Positions 32,764 through 36,608 of a stretch of DNA of 41,507 nucleotides are shown here, one piece after another (position 1 is the first letter of the stretch; each line of letters starts with the position of its first letter). Under the pieces are notes generated by a model. It had not been told where the DNA came from. It saw only the letters and a program-made list of their open reading frames with translations, and made no database searches. The DNA is taken from assembly GCA_023489485.1 (NCBI GenBank), contig JAMDCU010000139.1, forward strand, positions 2,937 to 44,443, read 5' to 3'. Made by a program: the position numbers and the translations under genes. The stretch is from Chloroflexota bacterium. Its GTDB lineage: Bacteria; Chloroflexota; Anaerolineae; UBA4142.

Positions 32764-33468
32764 ATGATGAAAAACATCCGCGAAGAGACCTTTCAAATGG
32801 CAACGGTGGTGGTAGTCGTCCTGACGGTACTCGTCTGCATGGCATTCATTGTCATCTTCGTCAATCCACAGATTGCGCTCAACCCGCTCAAGCCCCACCT
32901 TGTCGTTACCACCGGGATCGCAGCCCGTCTCCAGCCTACCTGGACTCCGACTCCGACGAATACGCCAACCCTGACTCCGACGCCGACTTTGACCCCGACG
33001 CCAACCCTGACGCCTCTGCCGACGAGAACGCCGACCAGAACGCCCGTCCCGACGCAAAGGCCGCCCATCCCGACTCGCAAGCCGATTCCTCCGACGAGCC
33101 CTCCTTACGCCTACAAAACGTTCCTGAAAGGTTGCTATCATTCCGGTGGTACTTTTATTGAAGGGATCGTCTACAACAATGACGGTTCCGAGTTGTCGGG
33201 TGTGCGAGTCGCGATGAGTACGGGCCCGGGGCCTGGGAACGGCGATGTGTACTATGCGACCAGCGGGTCGCAGGGAAAGAGCGCCGGCTATTATGTTCAC
33301 ATTCTTGCAGGCAACGGCGCTCGCCCCGGAAGTTACTATGTATGGGCTGCGGACGCCAACGGCAATGCCCTGTCCGACCCATATTCCGGCCATGTAGTGA
33401 CCAACGCGAATGGCCCGAATGACCCCATGTCTTGCTGGCGCGCGGAGGTGAATTTTATGCGCCGATAG
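32764..33468 (+). CDS. membrane-anchored protein with TP-repeat stalk and beta-sandwich-like domain
   Basis: The 234-aa protein has an N-terminal membrane segment (MATVVVVVLTVLVCMAFIVIFV), a Thr-Pro stalk (about residues 58-117) and a C-terminal domain starting YKTFLKGCYHSGGTFIEGIVYNNDGSELSGVRVAM. G.V.N..G..L.GV.V resembles carboxypeptidase-regulatory or transthyretin-like beta sandwiches. The TP stalk is typical of surface-exposed proteins in Anaerolineae. A GGGG tract precedes ATG 32764; ATG 32767 is equally possible. Role unknown; probably displayed outside the cell. Confidence 0.75.
   Translation: MMKNIREETFQMATVVVVVLTVLVCMAFIVIFVNPQIALNPLKPHLVVTTGIAARLQPTWTPTPTNTPTLTPTPTLTPTPTLTPLPTRTPTRTPVPTQRPPIPTRKPIPPTSPPYAYKTFLKGCYHSGGTFIEGIVYNNDGSELSGVRVAMSTGPGPGNGDVYYATSGSQGKSAGYYVHILAGNGARPGSYYVWAADANGNALSDPYSGHVVTNANGPNDPMSCWRAEVNFMRR
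32940..33090 (+). repeat. ACTCCGACGCC-type coding repeats (TP stalk)
   Basis: Degenerate repeats of ACTCCGACGCCGACN encode TPTPTLTPTPTLTP and related units. Such tracts vary in length by slippage and often collapse in assemblies. Confidence 0.8.
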
Positions 33469-33518
33469 AGGGCGGCTCTATCTTTCCGCGGGGCTCGATT
33501 TGGGGGCAGTAAGTACTA

Positions 33519-33547
33519 TTGACCCTGTATATGGCGGATGATAGAAT
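33519..33547 (+). promoter_or_regulatory. promoter of the winged-helix gene
   Basis: TTGACC (33519-33524), a 17-base spacer and TAGAAT (33542-33547). Transcription from here would start near 33554, after the first in-frame ATG (33538), which supports a GTG start at 33583. Confidence 0.65.
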
Positions 33548-33582
33548 CGGAAGGACATAGGCTCTCGCATGACGGAGATACA

Positions 33583-33951
33583 GTGCCTGCCAATCGGCTC
33601 TCGTCCCGCCCCTCCTCTCCTTTTCCCCCCTACTCCAAGGAGATAGACGTCGAACTCTTGGCTTTTATCGAGCGATACGCAACCAACTTGGCCCGTTGGG
33701 ATATCCTGGTGCTTTTCGGGCAGAACCCCGACCTGCAGGAGAACGCTCAACGCCTTGCCAAGCGCTTGGGGCGCCGCTCGCAGTCCATTGAGAAGGAACT
33801 GGAGGACTTGGCCTACCTTGGTATTCTCCAGACTCATCCGAACGGCCGAGGGATGGTTTACGAACTGGTGCGCGAGCCGGCGACACAGCAGGCTGTGATT
33901 CGCCTCGCCCACCATTTGAGCGGGGCTCCTGTCCTGCCGTCGCGCAAGTAA
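33583..33951 (+). CDS. small winged-helix-like protein
   Basis: The 122-aa product has helices and a wing resembling a winged helix: FIERYATNLARWDILVLFGQNPDLQENAQRLAKRLG, RRSQSIEKELEDLAYLGILQTHP, then GRGMVYELV as the wing. It may bind DNA or act as a predicted transcriptional regulator; the ligand and targets are unknown. GTG 33583 is chosen because GGAG lies 5 bases upstream and the apparent promoter begins transcription after ATG 33538, which is the alternative start. A 57-bp perfect hairpin follows the stop. Confidence 0.7.
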   Translation: MPANRLSSRPSSPFPPYSKEIDVELLAFIERYATNLARWDILVLFGQNPDLQENAQRLAKRLGRRSQSIEKELEDLAYLGILQTHPNGRGMVYELVREPATQQAVIRLAHHLSGAPVLPSRK

Positions 33952-33959
33952 GCGGCGAA

Positions 33960-34016
33960 AATGAAAAGCAAAACTTGCTCTCCCCTGTCAGGGGAGAGCA
34001 AGTTTTGCTTTTCATT
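33960..34016. terminator. 57-bp perfect inverted repeat (28-bp arms), probable terminator
   Basis: Positions 33960-33987 are an exact reverse complement of 33989-34016 around a single T. The innermost part is CTCTCCCCTG-T-CAGGGGAGAG and the outer arms are AATGAAAAGCAAAACTTG and its complement. The T-rich right arm suits termination of the winged-helix gene. The stem is far longer than normal, and the right arm contains the likely -35 element of the next operon. Confidence 0.7.
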
Positions 34017-34033
34017 CTGGATTCGACTATAAT
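34005..34033 (+). promoter_or_regulatory. promoter of the MBL-folE-folP operon
   Basis: TTGCTT (34005-34010), a 17-base spacer and TATAAT (34028-34033). The -35 hexamer lies within the right arm of the long inverted repeat. Confidence 0.6.
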
Positions 34034-34051
34034 CGAAAGGCTGGAGGAGGA

Positions 34052-34696
34052 ATGGAGATAGATTGGTTTGGGCATTCGTGTTTTCGTCTGCGCGGCCGAG
34101 AAGGGACGGTCATCACGGATCCGTACTCGAAAGAGATCGGTCTGAGCTTTCCTCGCCCGCGCGCTGATATTGTAACCATCAGTCATGATCATCCCGGGCA
34201 TCATTTTGCCGCGGGCGTCAAGGGAGACCCCAGAGTGATTGAGGGACCCGGCGAGTACGAGATCAAGAACATCTTTGTAACCGGCATTCCGACCTCGCAC
34301 GACAAAAAGGGGGGCAAGGAGCGAGGGCCCAACACAGTTTACACGATTGAGATGGACGGGCTGACCATCTGCCATCTCGGCGACTTGGGTCATGTGCCGA
34401 GCCAGGCGCAGGTGGATACGCTGGGCGATGTCAATATCCTGCTCATCCCGGCCGGCAACGCGACGACGATCGGACCGGCGGAGGCCGCCGAGGTCGTTTC
34501 GCTGCTCGAGCCGCAGATTGTCATTCCCATGCACTTTGCGCTCCCCGAGCTGACGAACAAGCTCGAGCCGCCGACCAAATTCTTCAAGCAATTGGGCGTC
34601 AAGCCTCCGGGAGCTCTCCCCAGTTTCAAAGTGACCAAGGATTCGCTGCCGCAAGAGACCCAGGTGGTGCTGCTCGAAGCCAAACAAAAAGAGTAG
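34052..34696 (+). CDS. MBL-fold metal-dependent hydrolase (UlaG-like)
   Basis: The 214-aa protein has the metallo-beta-lactamase core: WFGHSCFRLRGREGTVITDPY, the metal motif HDHPGHH, later IPTSHD, CHLGDLGH and PMHF. These correspond to the usual histidine and aspartate ligands. Members of this UlaG-like subgroup are hydrolases of diverse small substrates. GGAGGAGGA sits just before ATG 34052. It heads a run with folE and folP (25- and 6-base gaps); a role in pterin or phosphoester clean-up is only a context guess. Confidence 0.88.
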   Translation: MEIDWFGHSCFRLRGREGTVITDPYSKEIGLSFPRPRADIVTISHDHPGHHFAAGVKGDPRVIEGPGEYEIKNIFVTGIPTSHDKKGGKERGPNTVYTIEMDGLTICHLGDLGHVPSQAQVDTLGDVNILLIPAGNATTIGPAEAAEVVSLLEPQIVIPMHFALPELTNKLEPPTKFFKQLGVKPPGALPSFKVTKDSLPQETQVVLLEAKQKE

Positions 34697-34721
34697 AGAC
34701 TAAGGGAACAAGATTCGCAAC

Positions 34722-35288
34722 ATGGACAATGCCCGGATTAGGAAGGCGGTCAGCGAGATCATTGCTGCCATTGGGGATGACGAGACGCGCGAGGGATTGC
34801 GCGAGACGCCGCGGCGGATCGCCGACATGTATGCAGAGATTTTTCAAGGTGTGGAACAAGACCCTCTGGAAGCTCTCGCCGTGACTTTCGACGCAGGCGG
34901 CCACCAAGAGATGGTTATCCTCAAGGACATTCCCTTTTACTCCGTCTGTGAGCATCATTTTCTTCCTTTCCACGGCGTCGCGCACGTCGGCTATATTCCC
35001 AAAGACCGGCTGGTCGGGGTGAGCAAGATCGCACGTGTGGTCGATATCCTTGCCCGGCGTCCTCAAATGCAAGAGCGTCTCACGAGCCAAGTCGCGGACT
35101 GTATGATGGCGGGGCTCCATCCCACGGGGGTCGCGGTCGTCGTCGAAGCCGAGCATCTCTGCATGACCATGCGCGGCATCAAAAAGCCCGGAAGCCGCCT
35201 GGTCACGAGCGCCACTCGCGGAGTCTTTCGCACCAGCTCGGCGACTCGATCCGAGTTCTTCTCACTTGTACGTGAAGAGAAGAGGTAA
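34722..35288 (+). CDS. folE: GTP cyclohydrolase I
   Basis: The 188-aa protein converts GTP to 7,8-dihydroneopterin triphosphate, first step of folate synthesis. Diagnostic motifs: ETPRRIADMYAEIFQG, the zinc and active-site block YSVCEHHFLPFHGVAHVGYIP, VGVSKIARVVDILARRPQMQERLT, and EAEHLCMTMRGIKKPGS. All zinc cysteine/histidine positions look intact. It is 6 bases upstream of folP. Confidence 0.97.
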   Translation: MDNARIRKAVSEIIAAIGDDETREGLRETPRRIADMYAEIFQGVEQDPLEALAVTFDAGGHQEMVILKDIPFYSVCEHHFLPFHGVAHVGYIPKDRLVGVSKIARVVDILARRPQMQERLTSQVADCMMAGLHPTGVAVVVEAEHLCMTMRGIKKPGSRLVTSATRGVFRTSSATRSEFFSLVREEKR

Positions 35289-35294
35289 ACAGGG

Positions 35295-36608
35295 TTGTAC
35301 AGCCTGCGCGCCTTTGAGTTCCACGACCCGAGCGAACTGCGCGCCGAATTGGCCAAGCACGGCGTGGAGTCATCCGCTCAGCCGGAGCACCTCGCGAAGG
35401 GTCTTTTTCGCGCCTTTGAAATCGACGGCATTTCGCCTGTCCTGGCCCAGTTCCTCTATCAGGAAATTGTACTGGAGGGAGGCGACGCCGTCATCCCTTC
35501 TCGGGCGCAGGGGACTGGCGATCGCACTTCGGACCAAGCTCCGGCCATCGACCGGCGCATAGAGGGCTCGGCCAAGATCCTCCTCCTTGGGACCGAGTAC
35601 CAACTCCGCCATCTTGCCATTCGGGTTCGTACTCAGGCCGAGGGTGCCAGTGTGGCCGGTGGGGAAATTGCGCTTTTGGCCGACGACATGGAGCGCACGC
35701 TCGCAGCTATCGGTTCTGAGAACCGCGGTCAGGTCAGGATTCGGGAAACGGAGTTCACGTGGGGCCGCCGCACCTACATCATGGGCATTATCAACTTGAC
35801 GCCCGATTCATTCAGCGGTGACGGCGTACTGGCGTCTGGGACGCAGGATTGGATCGAGCGCGCGGTCGCGCACGCAGAGGAGTTGGTTGTGGGCGGCGCC
35901 GATATCCTGGACGTCGGAGGCGAGTCCACTCGCCCGGGCTCTCAACCCACTCCCGCCGAAGAAGAGTACCGGCGTGTCATTCCTCTGATCACGCGCCTGC
36001 GGTCCCGAACCCACGTGCCGATTTCGATTGACACCTACAAGGCTGAGATCGCGCGGGCTGCCCTCGACTCAGGAGCCGACCTCGTGAACGACGTCTGGGG
36101 ATTGCGGATGGACCCAGAAATGAAAAGGGTCATCGCGGACCGTGGTGTTCCGATCGTCATCATGCACAACCGCAGTCGGCCCAAAGACGCCGCGCAAACT
36201 GAACGCCTCGGCGGACGCTATGTCGGCGTCGAGTACGGCGACTTGCTCGGGGACATCATTCGCGAGTTGCGCGCGCAGATTGAGCTGGGCCGCGATGCGG
36301 GCATCCGCGACGGCCAAATCATCGTGGACCCCGGGATTGGGTTTGGAAAGACCGTCGAGCAGAACTTGGAACTGGTGAACCGGCTCGATGAATTGCGCGT
36401 ACTCGGCTATCCCATTCTCCTCGGCCCCTCGCGCAAAGGCTTTATCGGCTACACCCTTGACCTGCCCGCGGCAGAGCGCCTCGAGGGAACCGCGGCTACG
36501 GTCGCGGTGGGCATCGTGCGCGGAGCGGATATCCTGCGCGTGCATGATGTCAAGCCAATGACCCGCGTGGCTCGCATGACCGATGCCATCGTGAGGCGCC
36601 CCGCGTAG
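35295..36608 (+). CDS. folP: dihydropteroate synthase with N-terminal extension
   Basis: The C-terminal 285 residues are a complete DHPS TIM barrel: IMGIINLTPDSFSGDG, DVGGESTRPGSQP, ISIDTYKAEIARAAL, NDVWGL, VIMHN, DPGIGFGKT, LLGPSRKGFIG and a terminal RVHDVKPM. It joins 4-aminobenzoate to the pterin. About 150 residues precede the barrel, unlike the about 280-residue core enzyme. The extension (YSLRAFEFHDPSELRAEL, then ILLLGTEYQLRHLAIRVR) has no recognised motif here. The start is TTG 35295 with AGAGG upstream; no better start is seen. Confidence 0.95.
   Translation: MYSLRAFEFHDPSELRAELAKHGVESSAQPEHLAKGLFRAFEIDGISPVLAQFLYQEIVLEGGDAVIPSRAQGTGDRTSDQAPAIDRRIEGSAKILLLGTEYQLRHLAIRVRTQAEGASVAGGEIALLADDMERTLAAIGSENRGQVRIRETEFTWGRRTYIMGIINLTPDSFSGDGVLASGTQDWIERAVAHAEELVVGGADILDVGGESTRPGSQPTPAEEEYRRVIPLITRLRSRTHVPISIDTYKAEIARAALDSGADLVNDVWGLRMDPEMKRVIADRGVPIVIMHNRSRPKDAAQTERLGGRYVGVEYGDLLGDIIRELRAQIELGRDAGIRDGQIIVDPGIGFGKTVEQNLELVNRLDELRVLGYPILLGPSRKGFIGYTLDLPAAERLEGTAATVAVGIVRGADILRVHDVKPMTRVARMTDAIVRRPA

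Follow-up and report, generated by a model that had tools for sequence, protein, structure and literature searches.

Known arrangements of terminators and promoters

In Escherichia coli, most inverted repeats of at least 8 bp at gene ends form parts of intrinsic terminators, and the genome is poor in inverted repeats of at least 13 bp with a spacer of at most 8, according to the available portion of PMC6060812. A-tracts have been considered a sign of bidirectional terminators and a source of added pairing with the U-tract (PMC12207403, accessible part), and translation can all but silence a terminator that follows a gene at a distance of a few base pairs (PMC4824070, likewise from the part available). 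Termination may also be followed by renewed initiation: as described in the accessible sections of PMC6978380, E. coli polymerase that remains on the DNA once its RNA is released restarts at a nearby promoter in vitro in 37% of terminations, and in 55% with added sigma. In addition, template switching has been presented as a maker of RNA stems (PMC8794818), and template-switch mutation has been reported in E. coli quasipalindromes (PMC7202029), as far as the available text of the two papers goes. Among the titles and abstract openings found in the open-licence PMC literature, none describes a -35 element inside the T-tract of a terminator.

The hairpin analyzed here resembles those intrinsic (Rho-independent) terminators whose upstream A-tract pairs with the U-tract, having a G+C-rich stem and a T-tract and lying directly past a stop codon. 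Unlike such terminators, it has in this genome a perfect 28-bp stem extending over the entire T-tract, and the tract is also the proposed -35 element of the following operon. The predicted termination just upstream of a promoter of the same direction is shared with the terminator-then-promoter recycling system of PMC6978380. However, the template in the accessible part of that study was a made one with two separate elements, whereas here the terminator tract and the -35 element would be the same bases.

Architecture of the locus

The hairpin lies between a small upstream gene and an operon that begins with an MBL-fold hydrolase gene and continues with folE and folP. The features are listed below by position in the window, that is, the whole stretch of 41,507 nt (41.5 kb) that was analyzed.

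33519..33547, + strand: promoter-like TTGACC-17-TAGAAT, from a consensus scan only (1 found against 0.6 expected from shuffles)
33538..33951, + strand: upstream small ORF, from the ORF list (137 aa as listed)
33960..33987, + strand: left arm of the hairpin, 28 nt, found as a perfect inverted repeat
33989..34016, + strand: right arm of the predicted terminator hairpin, 28 nt, found as a perfect inverted repeat
34003..34013, + strand: T-tract TTTTGCTTTTC, present as TTTTGC[T/G]TT at 10/10 family sites; predicted terminator tail and -35 region
34005..34010, + strand: putative -35 hexamer TTGCTT, inside the right arm, assigned from conservation and spacing specificity
34028..34033, + strand: putative -10 hexamer TATAAT, present at 10/10 family sites
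34052..34696, + strand: MBL-fold hydrolase gene, first of the operon (Pfam PF13483, 1.1e-53; ATG at 34052)
34722..35288, + strand: folE, GTP cyclohydrolase I, from profile matches
35295..36608, + strand: folP, dihydropteroate synthase, from profile matches

The hairpin occupies 57 bases (33960-34016), with arms that are 100% complementary and separated by 1 nt. Its first base lies 8 nt past the stop codon of the small ORF (33951), and its G+C core approximately 22 nt past that codon. The DNA fold of 33930-34080 reaches -44.1 kcal/mol (z -9.7), a stability equaled by 0 of 200 dinucleotide shuffles. The locus thus combines two marks of an intrinsic terminator, namely a stable G+C-rich hairpin directly 3' of an ORF and a T-tract (TTTTGCTTTT, 34003-34012) at the stem foot; this tract pairs with the left arm in the present genome and is mainly free in most relatives. 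The spacer between TTGCTT and TATAAT comprises 17 nt (34011-34027). Both the 28-nt perfect arms and the TTGCTT-17-TATAAT pair reported in the initial annotation were re-located at the same bases and coordinates.

The true start of the upstream small ORF is perhaps the GTG at 33583, and TTGACC-17-TAGAAT is a possible promoter for it. The ORF has no match in Pfam or NCBIfam and, as a guess by eye, might encode a small DNA-binding regulator. The left arm carries TTGCTT in mirrored form; by eye, no -10-like box lies 17 nt further on that would complete a divergent promoter. A search of 33000-35500 against Rfam gave 10 matches at E<=1, all under the gathering cut-off (nine microRNA models and one ohsC_RNA), and the microRNA-model matches were discounted because any long perfect hairpin would attract such models. 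The folP gene, a chromosomal dihydropteroate synthase here, scored 396.6 bits against the NCBIfam Sul4 model, under its cut-off of 600; the likely origin of sul4 has been placed in Chloroflexi (PMC5732528, available portion).

Conservation across the family and beyond

The genome is a 3.12-Mb draft of 70.7% completeness, and its family relatives are likewise drafts, namely MAGs labelled Anaerolineales, Anaerolinea sp., Candidatus Aquidulcis sp. or Chloroflexi. An orthologue of the MBL gene at E<=1e-60 was present in 10 of the 14 family genomes, the own genome included, and absent from the other four (G004, G008, G009 and G013). All 10 family sites show the same order of small gene, hairpin, TTTTGC[T/G]TT and TATAAT, with a tract-to-TATAAT spacer of 17 nt in nine and 16 nt in one, and at each of them 0 to 4 of 200 mononucleotide shuffles fold as well as the stretch that precedes the spacer. 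The small gene itself is present at all 15 family and sister-family loci examined (10/10 and 5/5). The initial annotation had regarded the hairpin as common to a terminator and the MBL-folE-folP promoter and as unusually long. This view is supported, and the relatives keep both predicted elements at the same place.

The stem varies considerably among these sites. A stem of the form GAGGC..GCCTC occurs in six of the 10 (L004, L006, L007, L009, L010, L011), and a stem of other sequence, yet still pairing, in the remaining four (L003, which is this genome, L005, L008, L012). In all but the own genome and L005, that is, in 8/10, the perfect stem stops short of TTGC[T/G]T, and the promoter is kept. 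A MAFFT alignment gave five pairs with a covariation term of 0.16; because the stems do not align and leave covariation uninformative, pairing was judged genome by genome.

In the sister family, three of five loci (L013, L016 and L017, with folds matched by 8, 5 and 0 of 200 shuffles) have a T-rich tract and a hairpin whose end lies 20-23 nt ahead of TATAAT, and the terminator hairpin and promoter lie apart in the other two (L014, L015). Among 15 more distant loci (L018-L032), six have no TATAAT within 200 nt. The other nine include two with a stable fold before TATAAT (L018 and L031, 8 and 2 of 200 shuffles) and seven without one (21 to 189 of 200 shuffles as good). The arrangement is thus a feature of the family and, in part, of the order, and the distant loci show that its spread is limited.

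Two further stretches around the TATAAT box attracted attention. The spacer sequence GATTCGAC (34020-34027) is exact at 6/10 family sites, with near variants at the other four; its conservation seems to exceed what a spacer needs, and it is maybe an operator. The stretch from TATAAT to the ATG of the MBL gene measures 101-175 nt in L004, L005, L007 and L010 versus 18-49 nt in the six others. In L005 it contains a hairpin with 23-bp perfect arms, and in L004, L007 and L010 it seems rich in inverted repeats by eye; this spot may collect palindromes.

The T-tract as a putative -35 element

The consensus -35 hexamer is TTGACA, and a sigma-70-type promoter has its -35 and -10 hexamers 16-18 nt apart. 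TTGCTT agrees with it at 3/6 positions, TATAAT agrees with the -10 consensus at 6/6, and the two hexamers are 17 nt apart; a simple promoter scan did not list the TTGCTT-17-TATAAT site. The case for a -35 element would therefore be one of conservation and spacing, not of consensus score. The pattern TTTTGCTTTT-N13-16-TATAAT has 17 matches in the 14 family genomes, compared with 0 in a backward control and 1 each in shifted-gap controls (N18-21 and N8-11). Seven of these 17 matches are the MBL site and 10 are other loci. In five of the latter (L061, L068, L071, L072, L073), the hairpin before the tract is unmatched by 100 mononucleotide shuffles, and the remaining five lack a strong hairpin, with 6 to 81 of 100 shuffles folding equally well. 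Across 199 sampled genomes of the class, the spaced pattern has 27 matches and the backward control 0; among 17 matches outside the family, a strong hairpin precedes the tract in three (L107, L113 and L123; 0 or 1 of 100 shuffles). These findings suggest that fused terminator-promoter sites recur in the family. A general count covered 40 predicted terminators, 19 from the own genome and 21 from the family, of which three have a TATAAT-like box 15-45 nt on; it gave no excess of TATAAT-like boxes at -35 distance relative to the opposite strand, with a finder so strict that it omitted the known sites of the own genome, G006 and G011.

One of the other family loci, L073 (G007:C225), has a tmRNA gene at 315-732 according to ARAGORN, followed at 732-800 by a terminator-like hairpin. 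Its T-tract lies at -35 distance from a TATAAT, and pairing in the stem continues through the tract, as in the own-genome hairpin. The ORF after this TATAAT presumably encodes a methylthioadenosine phosphorylase. A tRNA had been considered as the upstream gene and was ruled out by the ARAGORN assignment of a tmRNA gene.

Rarity and copy number of the hairpin

Within the window, no second perfect hairpin with arms of at least 10 and a loop of at most 12 was found. A sample of 286,921 bases from the own genome, window included, contained 42 hairpins with arms of at least 10, and two first-order Markov replicates modelled on these sequences gave eight together, none longer than 11. Enlarging the sample to 579,386 of 3,120,370 bases (18.6%) raised the count to 78; the 28-bp arms are the longest in it, followed by 23, 21 and 21. 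A 400-kb sample of three family genomes (G006, G011, G012) contained 81 such hairpins, the longest 23. Long perfect stems are common in these genomes, and the 57-base hairpin is the extreme of the sampled part.

The initial annotation had also raised recent repeat insertion as an origin of the element and proposed searching the genome for further copies of the arms. At E<=0.001, a 106-nt query matched a single place in the draft (70.7% complete), on both strands because the sequence is a palindrome, and the exact arm had 0 matches in genome_contigs, a collection from which near relatives may be left out. The several genome copies that would mark a REP- or MITE-like repeat were thus not found in this 70.7% complete genome; what the comparison revealed instead was conservation of the hairpin site in relatives, at 10/10 family sites, which speaks against the suggested insertion. 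Separately, CTCTCCCC..GGGGAGAG palindromes with varied centres were observed on G000 contigs C3, C19, C22, C45, C107 and C152, and these six perhaps constitute a family of repeat-like elements.

Origin of the left arm

The foot of the left arm (33960-33973, 14 nt) is the exact complement of the T-tract, covering the -35 and four more bases. Among the genomes compared, this one alone has a left flank that complements the T-tract and -35 in full; 9/9 relatives lack it. In L008, the right side carries TTTTGCTTTTCATT, identical to the 14 nt of the own genome, and the left side is complementary at 5/14 positions. Over 14 nt, the left flank is complementary at 5 positions in L004, 9 in L005, 2 in L006, 3 in L007, 4 in L010 and 5 in L011, and over longer stretches at 4/21 in L009 and 7/18 in L012. 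The own-genome complementarity was equaled by 0 of 2000 shuffles, compared with 256 to 2000 of 2000 for the nine relatives. Since L008 has the same 14 nt without a matching left arm, the right side appears to be older and constrained, and the left arm looks recent.

A template switch during replication that copied the conserved right side is the likeliest origin of the left arm, as we infer from these comparisons. One such event would explain fourteen exact matches, in a case that rests on one genome. Template-switch mutation, which turns a quasipalindrome into a palindrome, would in a single event produce the exact reverse complement of an adjacent stretch and create or mend an RNA stem (PMC8794818, PMC7202029, accessible parts). 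The present case differs from those described in that the switch is deduced from sequence and no prior state is seen in near relatives. The left arm may also have arisen step by step under selection for a stronger or bidirectional terminator; no intermediate state of the left arm was found among the nine relatives, all of which fall within the shuffle range. A quasipalindromic ancestor in L005 was suggestive by eye and was rejected, as its 9/14 complementarity lies within shuffles (330/2000). If a template switch did occur, the locus would serve as a bacterial example of perfect RNA stems arising in a single step.

Proposed function and alternative explanations

Based on the anatomy, conservation, stem turnover and spacing specificity described above, we infer that transcription both terminates and initiates at this site: the hairpin probably ends the small-gene transcript, and the T-tract TTTTGCTTTTC probably doubles as the -35 region of MBL-folE-folP. 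Polymerase arriving from the upstream small gene would stop in the T-tract once the stem forms, and the DNA that codes for the U-tract would simultaneously serve as the -35 region. The operon would start approximately 7 nt after TATAAT, around 30 nt beyond the termination point, so its mRNA would not contain the hairpin, and the new transcript could come from an independent initiation event or from the same polymerase being used again. Held by two functions, the T-tract would be conserved, and the stem, which needs only pairing, could be rewritten between genera. The 28-bp stem with its paired A- and U-tracts could function in the opposite direction as well. The almost complete silencing of closely placed terminators by translation (PMC4824070, available part) counts as a caution against termination here because the hairpin starts 8 nt past the stop codon.

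The overlap with the -35 could instead be incidental, with the operon driven mainly by TATAAT and an activator, or by read-through, and the T-tract kept for termination alone. Such an explanation would suit the modest 3/6 agreement of TTGCTT with the consensus, the retention of GATTCGAC at 6/10 sites, as might be seen for an operator, and the fact that terminators require T-tracts anyway. It appears unlikely, however, in view of the tract-to-TATAAT spacing, which is specific over the family (17 matches against 1 and 1). A terminator alone does not explain this spacing because it is also found at hairpin-free loci. Moreover, any T-run would suffice for termination, yet the exact TTTTGC[T/G]TT is kept.

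Two further explanations concern the palindrome as such. As the initial annotation proposed, arm pairing in the DNA might compete with the promoter: negative supercoiling might extrude a 57-bp cruciform, so that the -35 leaves the duplex and the folate promoter is shut until relaxation frees it. The perfect 57-bp palindrome does take in the -35, and theory predicts that long inverted repeats are strong competitors for extrusion (PMC3834812, accessible part). For 57 bp in a 5-kb domain, the relaxation energy would be approximately -17 kcal/mol at sigma -0.03 and -38 kcal/mol at sigma -0.06, values that come from a standard formula and constant and exclude junction and loop costs. A G+C-rich centre slows cruciform extrusion, and this hairpin has such a centre. 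Furthermore, the full-length palindrome is present in one of the 10 family genomes, whereas the promoter is kept in all 10, and a conserved long palindrome was not seen among the 10 family sites, which makes a switch of this kind a rather improbable explanation. Recent insertion of a mobile or repetitive palindrome, REP- or MITE-like, is very improbable: the six CTCTCCCC..GGGGAGAG palindromes elsewhere in the genome share 8 bp of each arm, but the 106-nt query has one place in the 70.7% complete genome, no exact arm occurs in genome_contigs, the hairpin holds the same position at 10/10 family sites, and the conserved tract and -10 continue without interruption.

Implications

What seems to end one gene and begin the next is a single short run of bases, conserved across genera while the adjoining hairpin is rewritten. 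Such a site offers a natural way of asking whether the recycling of polymerase after termination plays a role in cells. Beyond the dual role of the T-tract proposed here, it is conceivable, albeit unlikely, that polymerase is handed over in place: having let go of the upstream transcript in the T-tract, it would already be positioned at the -35 of the folate operon and restart there with a sigma factor, with the longer stem of this genome tuning the process. If this were true, transcription of the upstream gene would feed the folate operon through termination, not read-through, and the family would use fused sites at several loci, one of them behind tmRNA.
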